From contig SMSO01000025.1 of NCBI GenBank assembly GCA_004764695.1, positions 2,279,102-2,343,101 on the forward strand: DNA of 64,000 bases, read 5' to 3'. The notes beneath the pieces were generated by a model, which ran no database searches, was not told the origin of the DNA, and saw nothing but the letters and a program-made list of their open reading frames with translations. The translations under genes and the position numbers were made by a program. This document shows positions 3,770-37,460 of the stretch, piece after piece; within the stretch, counting starts at the first letter, position 1; each line of letters begins with the position of its first letter. Origin of the DNA: Schizochytrium sp. TIO01 (lineage: Eukaryota; Sar; Bigyra; Thraustochytrida; Thraustochytriidae).

Positions 3770-4720
3770 TCAGGCATAAATGTAGCATGCGATAGAGAAA
3801 ACAACGTGAGTCGAAAGAGCTGTTGCAATAATAATTGGTGTGCCTTGGTCTACACCAGCTTTCTTGAGCAGACTGTGGGCTTGATTCTCATGAAACAGCA
3901 AGAAGAAGCATGCACCAACTAGAACTCCGGATAGAAATGTTGGTAGTCTCTGCATTAACGCACGCGGGCTGGAGATCAGTGGTCCTAGTGTAAGAATTGC
4001 CTGAATACCCATCAGACCTAGGCCATTGACTTCAACACCATATATTTGATAGCGGAAGTCCGGTGCCGTTAAGGCGGCATAAGAAATGACTGCCAGAATC
4101 GCGCCCTCAAAGCCAACAGGTTGCGGATGGCGCTTGACAATAAACTGGATTGCTCCTGTAAGAACCCCAGGAAGGAAGAAGAGTTTAAGAAATGATTGTC
4201 GACCAACGTCCTTCTGTACATCCAGTCCACTATTCACTAGGGCAGAGGCACCCATAAATGTGCCTACAAGAGAAGGCGAGTAAAAGCTTGTCACGAGAAA
4301 ACTCCAAGGTCTTGTCAAAGAAGGACGAGCAACTCGCACAGCGAAGCCAGGCTTGATTACTGCAGTCGCGAAAGACAGTACCAGTAAGACTGCAAGGCCA
4401 ACCAGATCATCCCGGACCTTATGCGGAATGAATGTACCAAAGATGCCCAGAAGCCTATTTTCGCTGACTTTATTCTTCGGAGTGATGATAGTGTAGAAAA
4501 AATAATCCGCCATTGTACTAGTTGATAAATCCTTCGGGATAGGTCCATACCAGCTCAAGGGCGAATCTCCGCTGAGCCAAAGTTCAAGGCGTTCCTTGGC
4601 GATTTCAGAAGCAGGCTGGCCAAACCAAGCGACCTCACGAGAACGATCAATGACACTCGGCCTTGTCAGAGCCAACGTGCACGCCAGCAGAGCTACTCCC
4701 ACAAACTCAATCACACGCAT
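3770..4720 (-). CDS. Rhomboid-like membrane protein with substituted active-site motif
   Basis: A 316-residue multi-helix membrane protein. The ATG at 4720 is preferred; the frame extends to 4777 only through a TTG, and the same ATG context is conserved in the paralogue downstream. It begins with a signal-anchor-like helix, then a soluble segment, then about five or six hydrophobic helices. The block RPWSFLVTSFYSPS resembles the RPWTL-T-F segment that opens the rhomboid core. GFEGAILAVISYAALTAP near residue 203 resembles the GxSG helix of rhomboid proteases, but the nucleophile Ser position is Glu. The HxxxN motif expected after RPW is also absent. If the assignment holds, this is a non-catalytic, iRhom/derlin-like member. 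An unrelated polytopic protein remains possible. Confidence 0.55.
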   Translation of the reverse strand: MRVIEFVGVALLACTLALTRPSVIDRSREVAWFGQPASEIAKERLELWLSGDSPLSWYGPIPKDLSTSTMADYFFYTIITPKNKVSENRLLGIFGTFIPHKVRDDLVGLAVLLVLSFATAVIKPGFAVRVARPSLTRPWSFLVTSFYSPSLVGTFMGASALVNSGLDVQKDVGRQSFLKLFFLPGVLTGAIQFIVKRHPQPVGFEGAILAVISYAALTAPDFRYQIYGVEVNGLGLMGIQAILTLGPLISSPRALMQRLPTFLSGVLVGACFFLLFHENQAHSLLKKAGVDQGTPIIIATALSTHVVFSIACYIYA

Positions 4721-6022: not shown

Positions 6023-7059
6023 TTACTGAAATAGCAAATAGGAGTAAATGCCAACCAAAACCCCAGTGAAATAGGTTACCCTCTCCTGCTTTGAGTTTCG
6101 AGAGTCTCTCCGCAGCATTTCTCTATTGATATAAGTTAAGAATATCACAACCAGGGCAAGGCTAGCCTTGTTGTTCTCAAAGACCCGGGGTGCAGATAGG
6201 AACTCCCGGTTAATAGAGACACTATAGACCACGAGTGCCAGAATCGCGCTGTCAGATCCAACAGGTTGCGGCTGCTGCTTTTCAAGATACCGGCTCACCC
6301 CAATTACAACCCCGGGAAGGAAAAAGAGGCAGAGAAATGCTTGAGTACCAGCTGGATTGTCCTTCTGTACGATAGAACCAAACATTGAAATGAGGTTGAC
6401 ATCGTATTCATAAATGAGGGCGAGTAAAAGCTCGTTACTAGTAAACTCCAAGGTCGGGTTAATGAAGGACAGGTAATTCGCTCAGCAAGGCTAGGACGAA
6501 TTTTTTTAGCTGCATAAAACAGATATAACAACAACTGAATGCGCTTGATGTTATAGCTAACTTTATAGTGAAAAAATATTCCAAAGATGCCTACAAGTCT
6601 GTCTTCACTGTGTGCGTCCTTCAGACTAATCATAGTATAGAAAACATAGTCCGTCAGAAGAATCGTTGATCCGTTAGATATAGGTTCGTGCCAGCTCACG
6701 GGCGCATTGAGACTATGCCACAGCTTTAGGTGTTCATTTGAAGCAACTAGATATTTAACAGGCTTATCACTAGACCAGCCAAACCACGTGTTCCAACATC
6801 CATCATGCATAGTATTTAGATGTACCTGACCTTCATTCATCATGGCCAACGTGAAGTTGGTGGATAGATCTTTAGGTATAGGCCCGTACCTGCTCACTGG
6901 TGGATTTCCACCATACCAGAGACTAATGCGCTCTTTGGCAATTTCATAGGCAGACTCACCAAGCCAGGTGTTCTGACGTGCAGAATCCTCAAAACTCGGT
7001 CTTGTCACCGCCAAAGTGGCCCCCATCAGAACCATGCCTAGAAATTCAAGCACGCGCAT
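6023..7059 (-). pseudogene. Frameshifted tandem paralogue of the rhomboid-like gene
   Basis: The first part (ATG at 7059) shares MRV-EF-G, TRPS, AKERI-LW, YGPIPKDLST and SLTRPWS-LVTSFYSPS with the gene at 3770-4720. After that block homology jumps to another frame, which runs to 6023 and carries LFFLPGV, QPQPVGS-SAILA and YFTGVLVG. Alignment of the two DNAs between the TACTCGCC and CAGAAGGAC anchors shows a net loss of 7 bases here (about 6385-6435), so the frame is broken. The copy also contains an internal duplication of the TW-G...LW...PVS-PI segment and ends earlier than its paralogue. The GxSG position reads GSDS. A sequencing error or a tiny intron could mimic the shift, but the 7-base loss and early stop favour decay. 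Confidence 0.65.
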
Positions 7060-8496
7060 TGTGACAGTCATTTTTATCAAGACTTCATTGAAAAGGTTAC
7101 AGTTTTGGATTGCCAATTTACTTCATTACATATTCAAAGTTGCCTTGATCAATCTCCGAAACTATCTCCAGTATCAAGAGTTCATTAAGTGTTTCTGACG
7201 TTCTTTGTCAATTTTATCAAATCCCTCTTGATCAATCACAACTGATTGATTGTAAGTATTGGAACCTGATGAGACTAGATAGAGCATTGAAGTTGATGCG
7301 CGTATTGGTGCTAGAAGTAGGATTAATCAGTCTTATTTTCTCATAATGAAATGGACGAATGTACGAAAAGCTAGTCATGTTAGGCCTACTTACTAGCACT
7401 ATTTAATATTTCTTTAGCAAGATCAAATGTACGAAAGTACCAAAAGTCTGAAAAGTGCTCTGTATGTTTTCAAGCTCGTGAATTGGACTCACAGGAACTT
7501 AACTTTCAACTTTTACCTATGAAGATGTTAGTCGACTCGCACTCCGAAAACTAAATAGTGGTGAGCTGAGATACCCCTACTTGTGTGAGCAGTTCATGAT
7601 GTTAGCTTTGGAGTGAGCAGAGACAAAAGCAACAAAGTCATATCTTGGGCCATATTCTTAATCCAATATAAGCTGATGCTAACGTAATGCGAGAAGTGAG
7701 AACCATTACCATTACAGATGCAACATAATGCAACATAAGGCTATTGTAGGTCCAAGGAACGACGGGTTGGATTACATGCGTTCAAGTGGGTTTATTAGAT
7801 CAGAGGTGCCTATCTCTATTGTTTTATTTAATTATAAACACGGAGCTAGATATAAATATTATGCATTTTAGAATCTCAGACTATCCAGAGATACCCAAGT
7901 TGGTCAATATTCCTCGCAAACGTATCCAACGTTGCTTTTGCTCTCCGCACGCCCAAGAGCTTTACAACAAGCATTCGGTCTACTCCGACTCTGAATTCGA
8001 TAATTGCGTTTTTCTTATTTCACCATACCGCTAATAGCCCCCCTTACTATTCACCTATGAAGCAGTTCAACAAGTCGACGCGCTTTCTTTCTCACTTCTC
8101 CAATACACTATTAAAACTAGCGTGCTTCTGGTGTAGCTAATCCGAAAAACTTTGCGACGAGATGATGGTTCTCCAAGAAGAACGTGTGCCTGAGGTGCCC
8201 TATTTGCTGTATCTCAACGCCCATAAAGTCCACAACGACCTTCACTCTATGTAATAACGACAAGCGAGAAGACAAGACAAGGGGGGAAAGTAGAATTAGC
8301 ATTCTGATTTCTTCCTCCGTCTGAGTTCGAAGAAGCTGACCTTCGTAATAATTAATTAATCATAATAATAGCAACTCTGATAATATCTATAGGGCTGAAA
8401 GGTCAGATACGTAATAAGTACTTTTCCTGTTGATAAATTCGAAGCGCAGAACTCGAACGCGAGCTTTCACGGCGTCTGTCTTGGCGGCGTGGGACG
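7060..8496. other. Gene-free spacer
   Basis: About 1.4 kb between divergent genes. Only short unconvincing frames are present. The last 100 bases before 8497 are probably the promoter and 5' UTR of the GFA-like gene. No repeats of note. Confidence 0.45.
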
Positions 8497-28416: not shown

Positions 28417-28494
28417 ATGAGTTATGGTATTGGTTTGGTGGATTCTCATTTTGTCTTGGACGTGTGCTGTCCAACTTGTGAATGCAAGAGATGA
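28417..28494 (+). promoter_or_regulatory. Overlapping upstream ORF at the receptor start
   Basis: An ATG in good context (ACCACATGA) lies 7 bases before the receptor ATG in another frame. It opens a 25-residue ORF ending at 28494 inside the receptor coding region. If transcripts include it, ribosomes would reach the receptor start by leaky scanning, giving translational damping. Confidence 0.45.
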
Positions 28495-30517
28495 CTTTGC
28501 GCGAGGAAATTGTGTGCTGTACACAAGCAGTGGCAACGGAACGGGCTTTTGCGATGAAGTTTTACAAGGGCGGCAGTACATGCTTGGAGAAGCCCTTGAC
28601 TTCGCAAGCGTAGAGGCGGGTCTTTCTCTCTATGCAGAAGAAATTCTTGAGAATATTCCTGATAGCTCTGAATGTGGAGCTGCGCTAAAAAAAGCCTTAT
28701 GTTTAGCAAATTTCATGCCTTGTGACATTGCGTCTCAGGAGCCACGTAAACTTTGTAAATCATCGTGTAAACAATTATCAAACCACTATTGTCCAGGCAT
28801 TGGAGCTTGGAATGAATCGATGTCAGTGCTTGACTGCGACGGCACAGTGGAGGGAAATGATCTTCTATATCTTCACTATCCACGTGATCTCGGCCCAACT
28901 TTTGCTTTCGCCCATGATAAAGAAACCATATATCGCTCACACGATCACTTAAGTGTTTGCATTGATCTTGACCAAGATCTCGAAAACATTACACTGTACG
29001 AAGAAAGATTTGTGTGTCCTGAGCCTTTTCTGACAAGGCACTATCCGGCACTCAAGCAATACGGTGAAGTGGGGTTTTCTACTCCAGATGATTCTTCATA
29101 TTGTAGCACACTAGACAAGAATAACATGCACGACCCAGCTAGATGCTTTGTTGCTTGCGAGTTACCATGCCCATATGGTTATACATTGCCTCAATATTAT
29201 GGGTTATGGATTGCGGAATGGCTCCCCGGCGTTATTAGCATTCCCTTTAATATTGCAATTATTCGTACCGAGTCGCGACGAATTCGACGCCGGAAAAAAA
29301 GATTTGCTCTAACTCGATGGCGATTTGTTTTGCAGAGTTACATGATTCACGACGCAGGTATTATTTCTTTGGGGATAGCGCTTATAGGCAGTGTCCCTTC
29401 GCTGATTTTAGGTCCAGGGATACGTTGCGCAGGGTATGATACATATTCGTTGTATACCAATGTGGATGGCTCACCTTATTGCAAGTTTGGATTGTTGCGT
29501 GAAGACTTAACCCTAGCACTTTTATGTTTTCTACTGACTATGCTGTACTTTACATTTTCGCAAGTCAGCGCCATGCAACATGGAAAGGCACTTTCAGCGC
29601 CTCGACGACGTGCATCAATCATGTCCAAAGTACGAACATATGCACTTCCTGTCTTGCTGGCGATTGCAACTTTATGTTTACAGGGTGATGCACTCTATGG
29701 TGCCTCTGTTGCGTATCGAGTAAGGCATGGTGGAGGCATTGAGGGAACATCTGAGTACACGCTTCATACTTTACGTTATCAATTTGCCTGTGGCTCTTAC
29801 TTTCGTGAGAAATGGCAAGAAAATCTCCTTGTCAATGCACCTATCTTAGTTGTGAGCTTTTTGGTTTTCTGGTTCTGTGGGCAAATTCTTCAGCGAATTT
29901 ATCATCTCCACGGAAGTCTTAAGGTAAGTGCAGGTTCCACAGCCGTGGCTTTTCGCGCTCTCAATCGTGTTGCAGGTTCTGGACTTCGTCTAGCAATGTT
30001 CATGGTCCCCTTATTGGTGCTCCACTCTTTGGAGGTGTTCTTAATTTACAAAACATCTCCAATGGAGGATATCGCAATGGCGGTTGCATATCGAAACGCG
30101 TGTGACAAGTATCTTGCAAATTCTTCTAGTGTGGACTTCACTACATATGAAACTGCATGGACGACCAAAATTATAGCAGACTCTTCGTTTAAACCTGCAA
30201 GTTTTTGTACCGAAGTCGTTAACAGCTTTCCAGCGTACAGCAATCTAGTATTACTTACTTTAACTCGCTCTCTGCCTGCATTGATTTTTGCATTTAGCTT
30301 CAAAACCAGCCTGAAGTCCATGTTAAAGTCGTTTTGCAAAAAGAAGCATCATTTGATGGGCGCTAATCCTTTAACACGTCGTAGGTGGAAGCAGAGTCTA
30401 TCAACATCGACCTCGTCCCGGATTCATCCAACGAGCTTAACCTCTGAGGATAACATCAATGAACCAGTCCGGCCGATGGCTAAACACAACGCCAGGAATA
30501 GCCACAGCATAGATTAA
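28424..30517 (+). CDS. Frizzled-like seven-transmembrane receptor
   Basis: A 697-residue protein with a signal peptide (1-21), an extracellular Cys-rich domain, seven hydrophobic helices and a basic cytoplasmic tail. The Cys-rich region has nine Cys between 30 and 138 and the Frizzled-type ending CKSSC...YC...W...LDCDG. Helices lie at about 262-282, 307-328, 364-384, 403-426, 466-488, 522-545 and 605-625. This matches class F (Frizzled/Smoothened) architecture, as also found in Dictyostelium. Immediately after helix 7 comes K627-T-S-L-K-S632: the Dishevelled-binding KTxxxW motif is present except that the Trp is Ser. Wnt ligands are not known in protists, so the ligand is unknown. The tail is Ser/Thr and Arg/Lys rich. 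Single exon. Confidence 0.85.
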   Translation: MVLVWWILILSWTCAVQLVNARDDFARGNCVLYTSSGNGTGFCDEVLQGRQYMLGEALDFASVEAGLSLYAEEILENIPDSSECGAALKKALCLANFMPCDIASQEPRKLCKSSCKQLSNHYCPGIGAWNESMSVLDCDGTVEGNDLLYLHYPRDLGPTFAFAHDKETIYRSHDHLSVCIDLDQDLENITLYEERFVCPEPFLTRHYPALKQYGEVGFSTPDDSSYCSTLDKNNMHDPARCFVACELPCPYGYTLPQYYGLWIAEWLPGVISIPFNIAIIRTESRRIRRRKKRFALTRWRFVLQSYMIHDAGIISLGIALIGSVPSLILGPGIRCAGYDTYSLYTNVDGSPYCKFGLLREDLTLALLCFLLTMLYFTFSQVSAMQHGKALSAPRRRASIMSKVRTYALPVLLAIATLCLQGDALYGASVAYRVRHGGGIEGTSEYTLHTLRYQFACGSYFREKWQENLLVNAPILVVSFLVFWFCGQILQRIYHLHGSLKVSAGSTAVAFRALNRVAGSGLRLAMFMVPLLVLHSLEVFLIYKTSPMEDIAMAVAYRNACDKYLANSSSVDFTTYETAWTTKIIADSSFKPASFCTEVVNSFPAYSNLVLLTLTRSLPALIFAFSFKTSLKSMLKSFCKKKHHLMGANPLTRRRWKQSLSTSTSSRIHPTSLTSEDNINEPVRPMAKHNARNSHSID

Positions 30518-36192: not shown

Positions 36193-37460
36193 ATGGGCCT
36201 CGGACAGCTTTTCTACAACCCCAACCTTGACTGGCACGCCAATGCCGTCATCTGGTGGACCTGGGAGTCTATTGTGCACCACATGTACTTCATTGTCCTC
36301 TTCGTAAGTTAAAGACTTGAAATATTAGTGGTGGTGTCAAGGGCAACTTAGGCTACTTGAAATCGCTCGAAGTGAACTGTCGTGCATACTGACACTGTTT
36401 GCGGGTCTAAAATAATTCTTTATAATAAACAGGTCCAGCGCCAGTTCTCCAAGACCTGGGAGACTGGTGAACTCTGTAAGTGCTATCCTCATTCACAATT
36501 GTTTTTGTATCTGATTGGCATCTAACGCAAAATGCAACGCATAAAATGTAATCCTTTCAATATAACAGGGCGTCTCAACATGGAGAAGGAGTGCGCCTTC
36601 TTTTCCAACCTCTTCGTAAGTGAAAAGATGTTTGTTGGTTTTGCTTTTCAGTCAAACCAAAATTGAAATACAGGACTAACACATTCTCCTTCATTTCTTG
36701 TATGCATGATGTCACCTAAAACTGCTCTGGATATGTTCAATGGGATTTCAACAAATAGGGTGGCGATGCCCGCCTCTGTGCTGATTCCACTATGACCCTG
36801 TTCTCCGGAATCTGGTTCGACACCGATAAGCCTACCCCTGAGCAGAAGAACTGGGTTGGCCGCATGGTGACCAACTTCCAGCACAGTGAGGCTATTCTGC
36901 ACTTTACCATTGTCATCTTTGGACTCATCATGGTGTTCTACCTTGCTTTCCAGAACAAGAACGTTAAGGCCCCCGCCCTTATCCGCTGGATCTTCTTCGC
37001 GGCCCTCTTCTTCGAGACCTACACCATGTGCTGGCCGTACCTCTTCCTCTTTGGCTGGGCCTGGGATGGTGTCACCCCGAACCCGCGTAACACTATTGTT
37101 GATACCCTTGTTTCTCTCGGCTCTGAGGACCCGTACATGGATGGCATCCAGATGGGTGCCTCCCTCATCACCATGTTCTGGGTTTCTGTCATTGTCCTCA
37201 TCCTCGACGGCTGGGCCATGTACCGCGCTGGTGAGTACGCCATGGGACGCTCTATGTCCTCTCTCATGCTCCAGTGGCTCATCTACGGTGTCACCACCTC
37301 TTACTTCTTCTACTACGCCAACGAGTTCTTCAAGCCCGGTGCTCGCGGCTCTGAGGGCACGGCTACTCTTGCTACTCAGACTCTTGACTGGCTCCACGGC
37401 CTCTACGGCAACGAGGGTCACATCTCTATGCTCGACGTGGCTAACCTGCACAAGAAGTAA
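36193..37460 (+). CDS. Four-exon polytopic membrane protein, 300 aa, unknown family
   Basis: Exons 36193-36303, 36433-36475, 36569-36615 and 36759-37460 join in frame (phases 0, 1, 0). All three introns (129, 93, 143 bp) begin GTAAG and end in AG followed by G. The protein starts MGLGQLFYNP and has five likely membrane helices near 17-38, 110-130, 137-168, 200-222 and 236-258, with no signal peptide. Trp, Phe and Tyr are abundant in the helices. I do not recognise the family. Codon use is very strongly biased to C-ending codons, as in highly expressed genes. The ATG at 36792 inside exon 4 would give a shorter frame, but the upstream exons clearly encode matching protein. The cluster of introns at the 5' end is typical of intron-enhanced expression. 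Confidence 0.85.

Follow-up and report, generated by a model that had tools for sequence, protein, structure and literature searches.

A putative diverged Frizzled/Smoothened-type receptor with an Fz cysteine-rich domain in a thraustochytrid

Smoothened (SMO) and Frizzled, the class F GPCRs (PF01392 and PF01534), share one order of parts: signal peptide, Fz Cys-rich domain (CRD), Cys-containing linker, CxxxC hinge, seven helices (7TM) and a Cys pair in ECL3. That protists have Frizzled-like receptors is in itself no novelty: examples from amoebae and fungi have been published. The Fsl/Fsc receptors of Dictyostelium and other Amoebozoa join a CRD to a diverged Frizzled-like 7TM part, have expanded within the lineage and mostly lack KTxxxW (PMC10445921), and chytrids encode non-animal Frizzled family receptors with about 40% identity to animal Frizzleds (PMC3251606). 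A recent survey places the origin of the Frizzled family in the opisthokont–amoebozoan ancestor (PMC12716839), and PF01534 matches in a bicosoecid stramenopile are already in print (PMC5447177). In the literature that we searched, no description of thraustochytrid Fz-7TM receptors was found. Here we analyse such a candidate, P0001, which has the class F order of parts. Going by the published description and not by sequence comparison, P0001 resembles the Fsl/Fsc receptors in its CRD plus diverged 7TM build, its expansion and its lack of KTxxxW, but comes from a different supergroup; its identity to animal Frizzleds is far lower than that of the chytrid proteins.

P0001 is encoded in the window, the whole 64,000-nucleotide stretch of DNA analysed, by a stop-free frame of 697 codons already described from the sequence alone, a length far beyond chance expectation (Table 1). 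The gene is real because relatives exist: another locus of this genome, on contig C30, matches residues 206-644 with 30% identity (E 2.6e-45) and the N-terminus more weakly. This paralogue appears to be split by one 106-bp GT-AG intron (L014 2018-2123), and its exon 1 encodes an Fz domain (Pfam E 1.3e-6). The sequence-only reading had described seven helices and a Cys-rich domain, and both are present in the open frame, with hydropathy placing seven helices after the signal peptide (approximately residues 256-280, 303-329, 353-381, 403-424, 464-494, 515-546 and 606-628) and the CRD carrying the motif CKSSC...YC...LDCDG (C111, C115, C123, C138). It had also supposed a probable protist host. Consistent with this, the genome (64 Mb, 37 contigs) encodes on contig C4 an omega-3 PUFA synthase (TIGR02813 above cut-off), a thraustochytrid hallmark among eukaryotes that points to such a host, and SAR-type DIX proteins are also present.

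Table 1. Features of the candidate receptor gene, in window coordinates
Feature	Position	Strand	Basis
Intronless gene, 697 aa, putative Fz-CRD and seven-helix receptor (P0001)	28424..30517	+	Open reading frame; paralogue match E 2.6e-45, residues 206-644
Signal peptide (predicted), residues 1-22	28424..28489	+	Hydropathy maximum of 2.08, residues 1-19
Fz cysteine-rich domain, residues 30-179	28511..28960	+	Pfam Fz; family profile against PDB; Cys spacing
Candidate ten CRD cysteines: C30, 43, 84, 93, 100, 111, 115, 123, 138, 179			Tenth (C179) putative
Linker/hinge, residues 198-249: FVCPEPF and hinge Cys 241, 245, 249 before helix 1	29015..29170	+	C198 in 4/5, C245 in 5/5 relatives
Helices 1-5 with ECL1 Cys335, helix-3 Cys353, ECL2 Cys456	29189..29905	+	Hydropathy; C353 and C456 unchanged in all five relatives; SMO register in the profile alignment
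Helix 6, starting GLRLAMF, Arg522 at SMO R6.32 site	29966..30061	+	hhalign register
ECL3 with Cys560 and Cys595, SMO ECL3 Cys-pair layout	30101..30208	+	C560 invariant in five relatives, aligned to SMO FRDYVLC cysteine; disulfide putative
Helix 7, residues 606-628	30239..30307	+	Hydropathy
KTSLKS, residues 627-632, at KTxxxW place; unconserved in relatives	30302..30319	+	Position after helix 7; family alignment

As judged by its sequence, the N-terminal domain of P0001 is an Fz domain. Pfam Fz (PF01392), the search proposed by the sequence-only reading, matches residues 77-139 with an E-value of 8.6e-5, which is significant although the score lies below the curated cut-off (23.5 versus 32.1 bits). 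A profile built from six family sequences and compared with the PDB matched the CRD of ROR2 at 1.2e-6 and that of FZD10 at 0.015; searched singly against the PDB, neither P0001 nor P0006, a CRD-7TM relative from the same genome, recovered relatives. Cysteines 84, 93, 100, 111, 115 and 123 are spaced 9-7-11-4-8, and four neighbouring spacings are the same as in FZD4, which has 9-7-11-4-7 (C90, 99, 106, 117, 121, 128).

The seven-helix part is more diverged. PF01534, the Frizzled 7TM model, gave no match to P0001, so that its 7TM part, unlike those of Smoothened and Frizzled, escapes detection by this model, and no other Pfam family matched this part, including Dicty_CAR and 7tm_2. For a profile comparison, P0001 was aligned with the CRD-7TM proteins P0002, P0006, P0007 and P0008 of the same genome, and the result was compared by hhalign with a class F set of SMO, FZD4, FZD1, FZD7 and P0004, a PF01534 receptor of this genome, against a null of 100 local column shuffles. 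The class F sequences were verified on PDB chains, fully except for a short piece of the FZD4 linker that was verified in part. With the linker included, the five-member profile matched class F over 288 columns at E 4.9e-5, with 0/100 shuffles scoring as high, and when P0004 was removed to leave animal class F, 1/100 did so. Reduced to the helices, the profile was equalled by 0/100 shuffles with P0004 and by 2/100 without it. By contrast, helices-only comparison with class B and cAR receptors stayed at chance level (29/100), as did P0001 taken as a single sequence against class F (35/100). These comparisons weakly suggest a link between the P0001 7TM part and class F that is specific but depends on the family profile; the link is strongest when P0004 bridges the two. 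AlphaFold models built from single sequences, one for the entire protein and one for the isolated CRD, reached pLDDT values of 40.6 and 35.3, too poor for a fold search.

The positions of conserved cysteines agree with this link. C245, C353, C456 and C560 are invariant in all five family proteins, and together with C198 these family-conserved sites (linker, hinge, top of helix 3, ECL2 and ECL3) occupy the class F disulfide places. Extracellular cysteines of P0001 comprise C335 in ECL1, C353 in helix 3, C456 in ECL2 and C560/C595 in ECL3, which may pair as in class F, and the ECL2 cysteine lies out of register in the hhalign alignment to class F. The linker motif FVCPEPF is comparable to FSCPRAL of FZD1 and hinge cysteines 241, 245 and 249 to GCGIQC of SMO; C198, C241 and C245 are common within the family and align to the SMO hinge, and P0006 has a hinge (SCQVQCPHPLYSNADYEHM) closely similar to the SMO one (GCGIQCQNPLFTEAEHQDM). 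Helix 6 begins GLRLAMF in P0001 and MLRLGIF in SMO. At the R/K6.32-W7.55 switch, R522 aligns to SMO R6.32, a likeness to class F, but Phe occupies the Trp7.55 site; the Arg is kept in P0007 and absent from P0002 and P0006.

P0001 is not an isolated receptor in this genome, which encodes at least five Fz-7TM genes (P0001 and at least four CRD-7TM relatives) together with P0004, the one receptor above the PF01534 cut-off (34 bits). P0004 (1174 aa; L015 790-4311, contig C34 about 1449-1452 kb) has FZD1 as its best PDB match, aligns to class F by hhalign at E 1.5e-6 and carries an Fz-like linker, SCPEPLVVP...CCALPC, after a long N-terminus with a weak Fz match, making it the clearest class F candidate in the genome. 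Both P0004 and P0001 have an apparently Frizzled-type 7TM part and linker, but PF01534 scores above cut-off in P0004 only. The model also matches the cAR-like protein P0005 of the same genome; PF01534 therefore does not cleanly separate class F from class E, and published PF01534 matches outside Amorphea need care. No relatives of P0001 were found among viral contigs and phages. Fz domains also occur in other settings. One 618-aa frame, P0009 (L018 2309-4162, contig C24 about 5426 kb), joins an Fz domain and a magnesium transporter of the NIPA type (Pfam 1.1e-26), a combination of which we know no other case, and P0010 and P0011 (L017 322-3321, L020 2225-3058) carry Fz domains on single-TM proteins, one with a predicted long intracellular coiled-coil tail.

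The sequence-only reading had emphasized a KTxxxS motif, interpreted as a KTxxxW sequence altered in a way that in animals would weaken Dishevelled binding. The observation is correct: KT directly follows helix 7 in KTSLKS, with Ser632 at the Frizzled Trp site. The interpretation is not supported, as the four aligned relatives from the same genome lack KT at the site; in P0006, KT lies one residue off, with xxxR after it (KTAYNRR). With no relative showing KT there, a conserved motif that could have lost its Trp is lacking, and the relatives do not bear out KT as a mark of a Frizzled C-terminus. SMO likewise lacks KT after helix 7, reading ATLLIW, and KTXXXW is retained by just two of 14 Fsl receptors in Dictyostelium, FslJ and FslK (PMC10445921). 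Two DIX proteins were found in the genome (L023 and L024, contigs C36 and C30), one DIX-only and one a DIX-DnaJ protein with a C-terminal DnaJ/auxilin-like part. Both architectures match the published SAR types ATHOS and DARTAGNAN (PMC12077222), and no Dishevelled was detected. The Wnt domain (PF00110) had no match in the genome, in a search run without a positive control. A receptor of the Wnt type whose Dishevelled binding disappeared with the change from Trp to Ser would account for KT and Ser standing where Frizzled has KT and Trp, but given the unconserved KT, the DIX proteins that are not Dishevelled and the unmatched Wnt domain, we consider it very improbable. Because the relatives and SMO lack KT, most Fsl receptors lack KTXXXW and the DIX proteins are not Dishevelled, the Trp-to-Ser change has no demonstrable meaning.

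P0001 is probably a class F-like receptor with seven helices, a diverged thraustochytrid form of the Frizzled/Smoothened type. The earlier Frizzled-like assignment is thus partly supported, as that of a diverged receptor: the CRD is clear, the 7TM profile match is weak but specific to class F and in the correct register, and the class F disulfide cysteines are present, set against the divergence of the protein and the missing PF01534 match. The same missing match, extending to every Pfam 7TM family, and the genome's habit of fusing Fz domains to unrelated membrane parts (P0009, P0010, P0011) would also suit a true Fz CRD shuffled onto a thraustochytrid-specific 7TM or a cAR/adhesion-type receptor, with convergent or residual resemblance to class F; this is unlikely, since the 7TM-only profile favours class F and not class B/cAR, and the linker and ECL3 cysteines agree with class F. 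A narrower version of the class F-like explanation, in our view rather unlikely as well, makes P0001 Smoothened-like: sterols or other lipids would be sensed by the CRD or by a pocket in the 7TM part, and a peptide ligand would not be required. The P0006 hinge and the ECL3 Cys pair are closer to SMO than to FZD, but P0001 alone is not significantly close to SMO.

As a class F-like receptor, P0001 would sit in the plasma membrane with its CRD outside, where the domain would bind a ligand other than Wnt, with a lipid, a sterol or a secreted protein as the most plausible choices, and rearrangement of helices 6 and 7 would signal to heterotrimeric G proteins, not to a Dishevelled. More tentatively, and with somewhat less than even confidence, we suggest that class F receptors with Fz CRDs predate the split between SAR and the amoebozoan–opisthokont lineage, that thraustochytrids kept and diversified Wnt- and Dishevelled-independent forms, and that the CRD-7TM architecture arose long before the Wnt pathway. 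The stramenopile CRD-7TM set and PF01534 receptor would push class F towards the eukaryote root or require gene transfer, and would also mean that the receptor architecture came before Wnt and Dishevelled and works without both. Such a set in a stramenopile is less expected under the amoebozoan–opisthokont origin proposed by surveys, and the surprise is moderate because bicosoecid PF01534 matches have already been published (PMC5447177).

In line with the proposed G-protein signalling, the genome contains 13-14 full-length G-alpha matches. Two G-alpha frames score identically (C30:1602726-1603772 and C8:834-1880), one of them near a contig end, and G-alpha genes form a cluster on contig C30 (1577-1603 kb). 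Elsewhere in the window, positions 36792-37457 (+) encode a 222-aa multi-helix membrane protein without a Pfam match, and two similar neighbouring rhomboid-like membrane frames lie at 3770-4720 and 6304-7071 (-), the second of which looks shortened and diverged.
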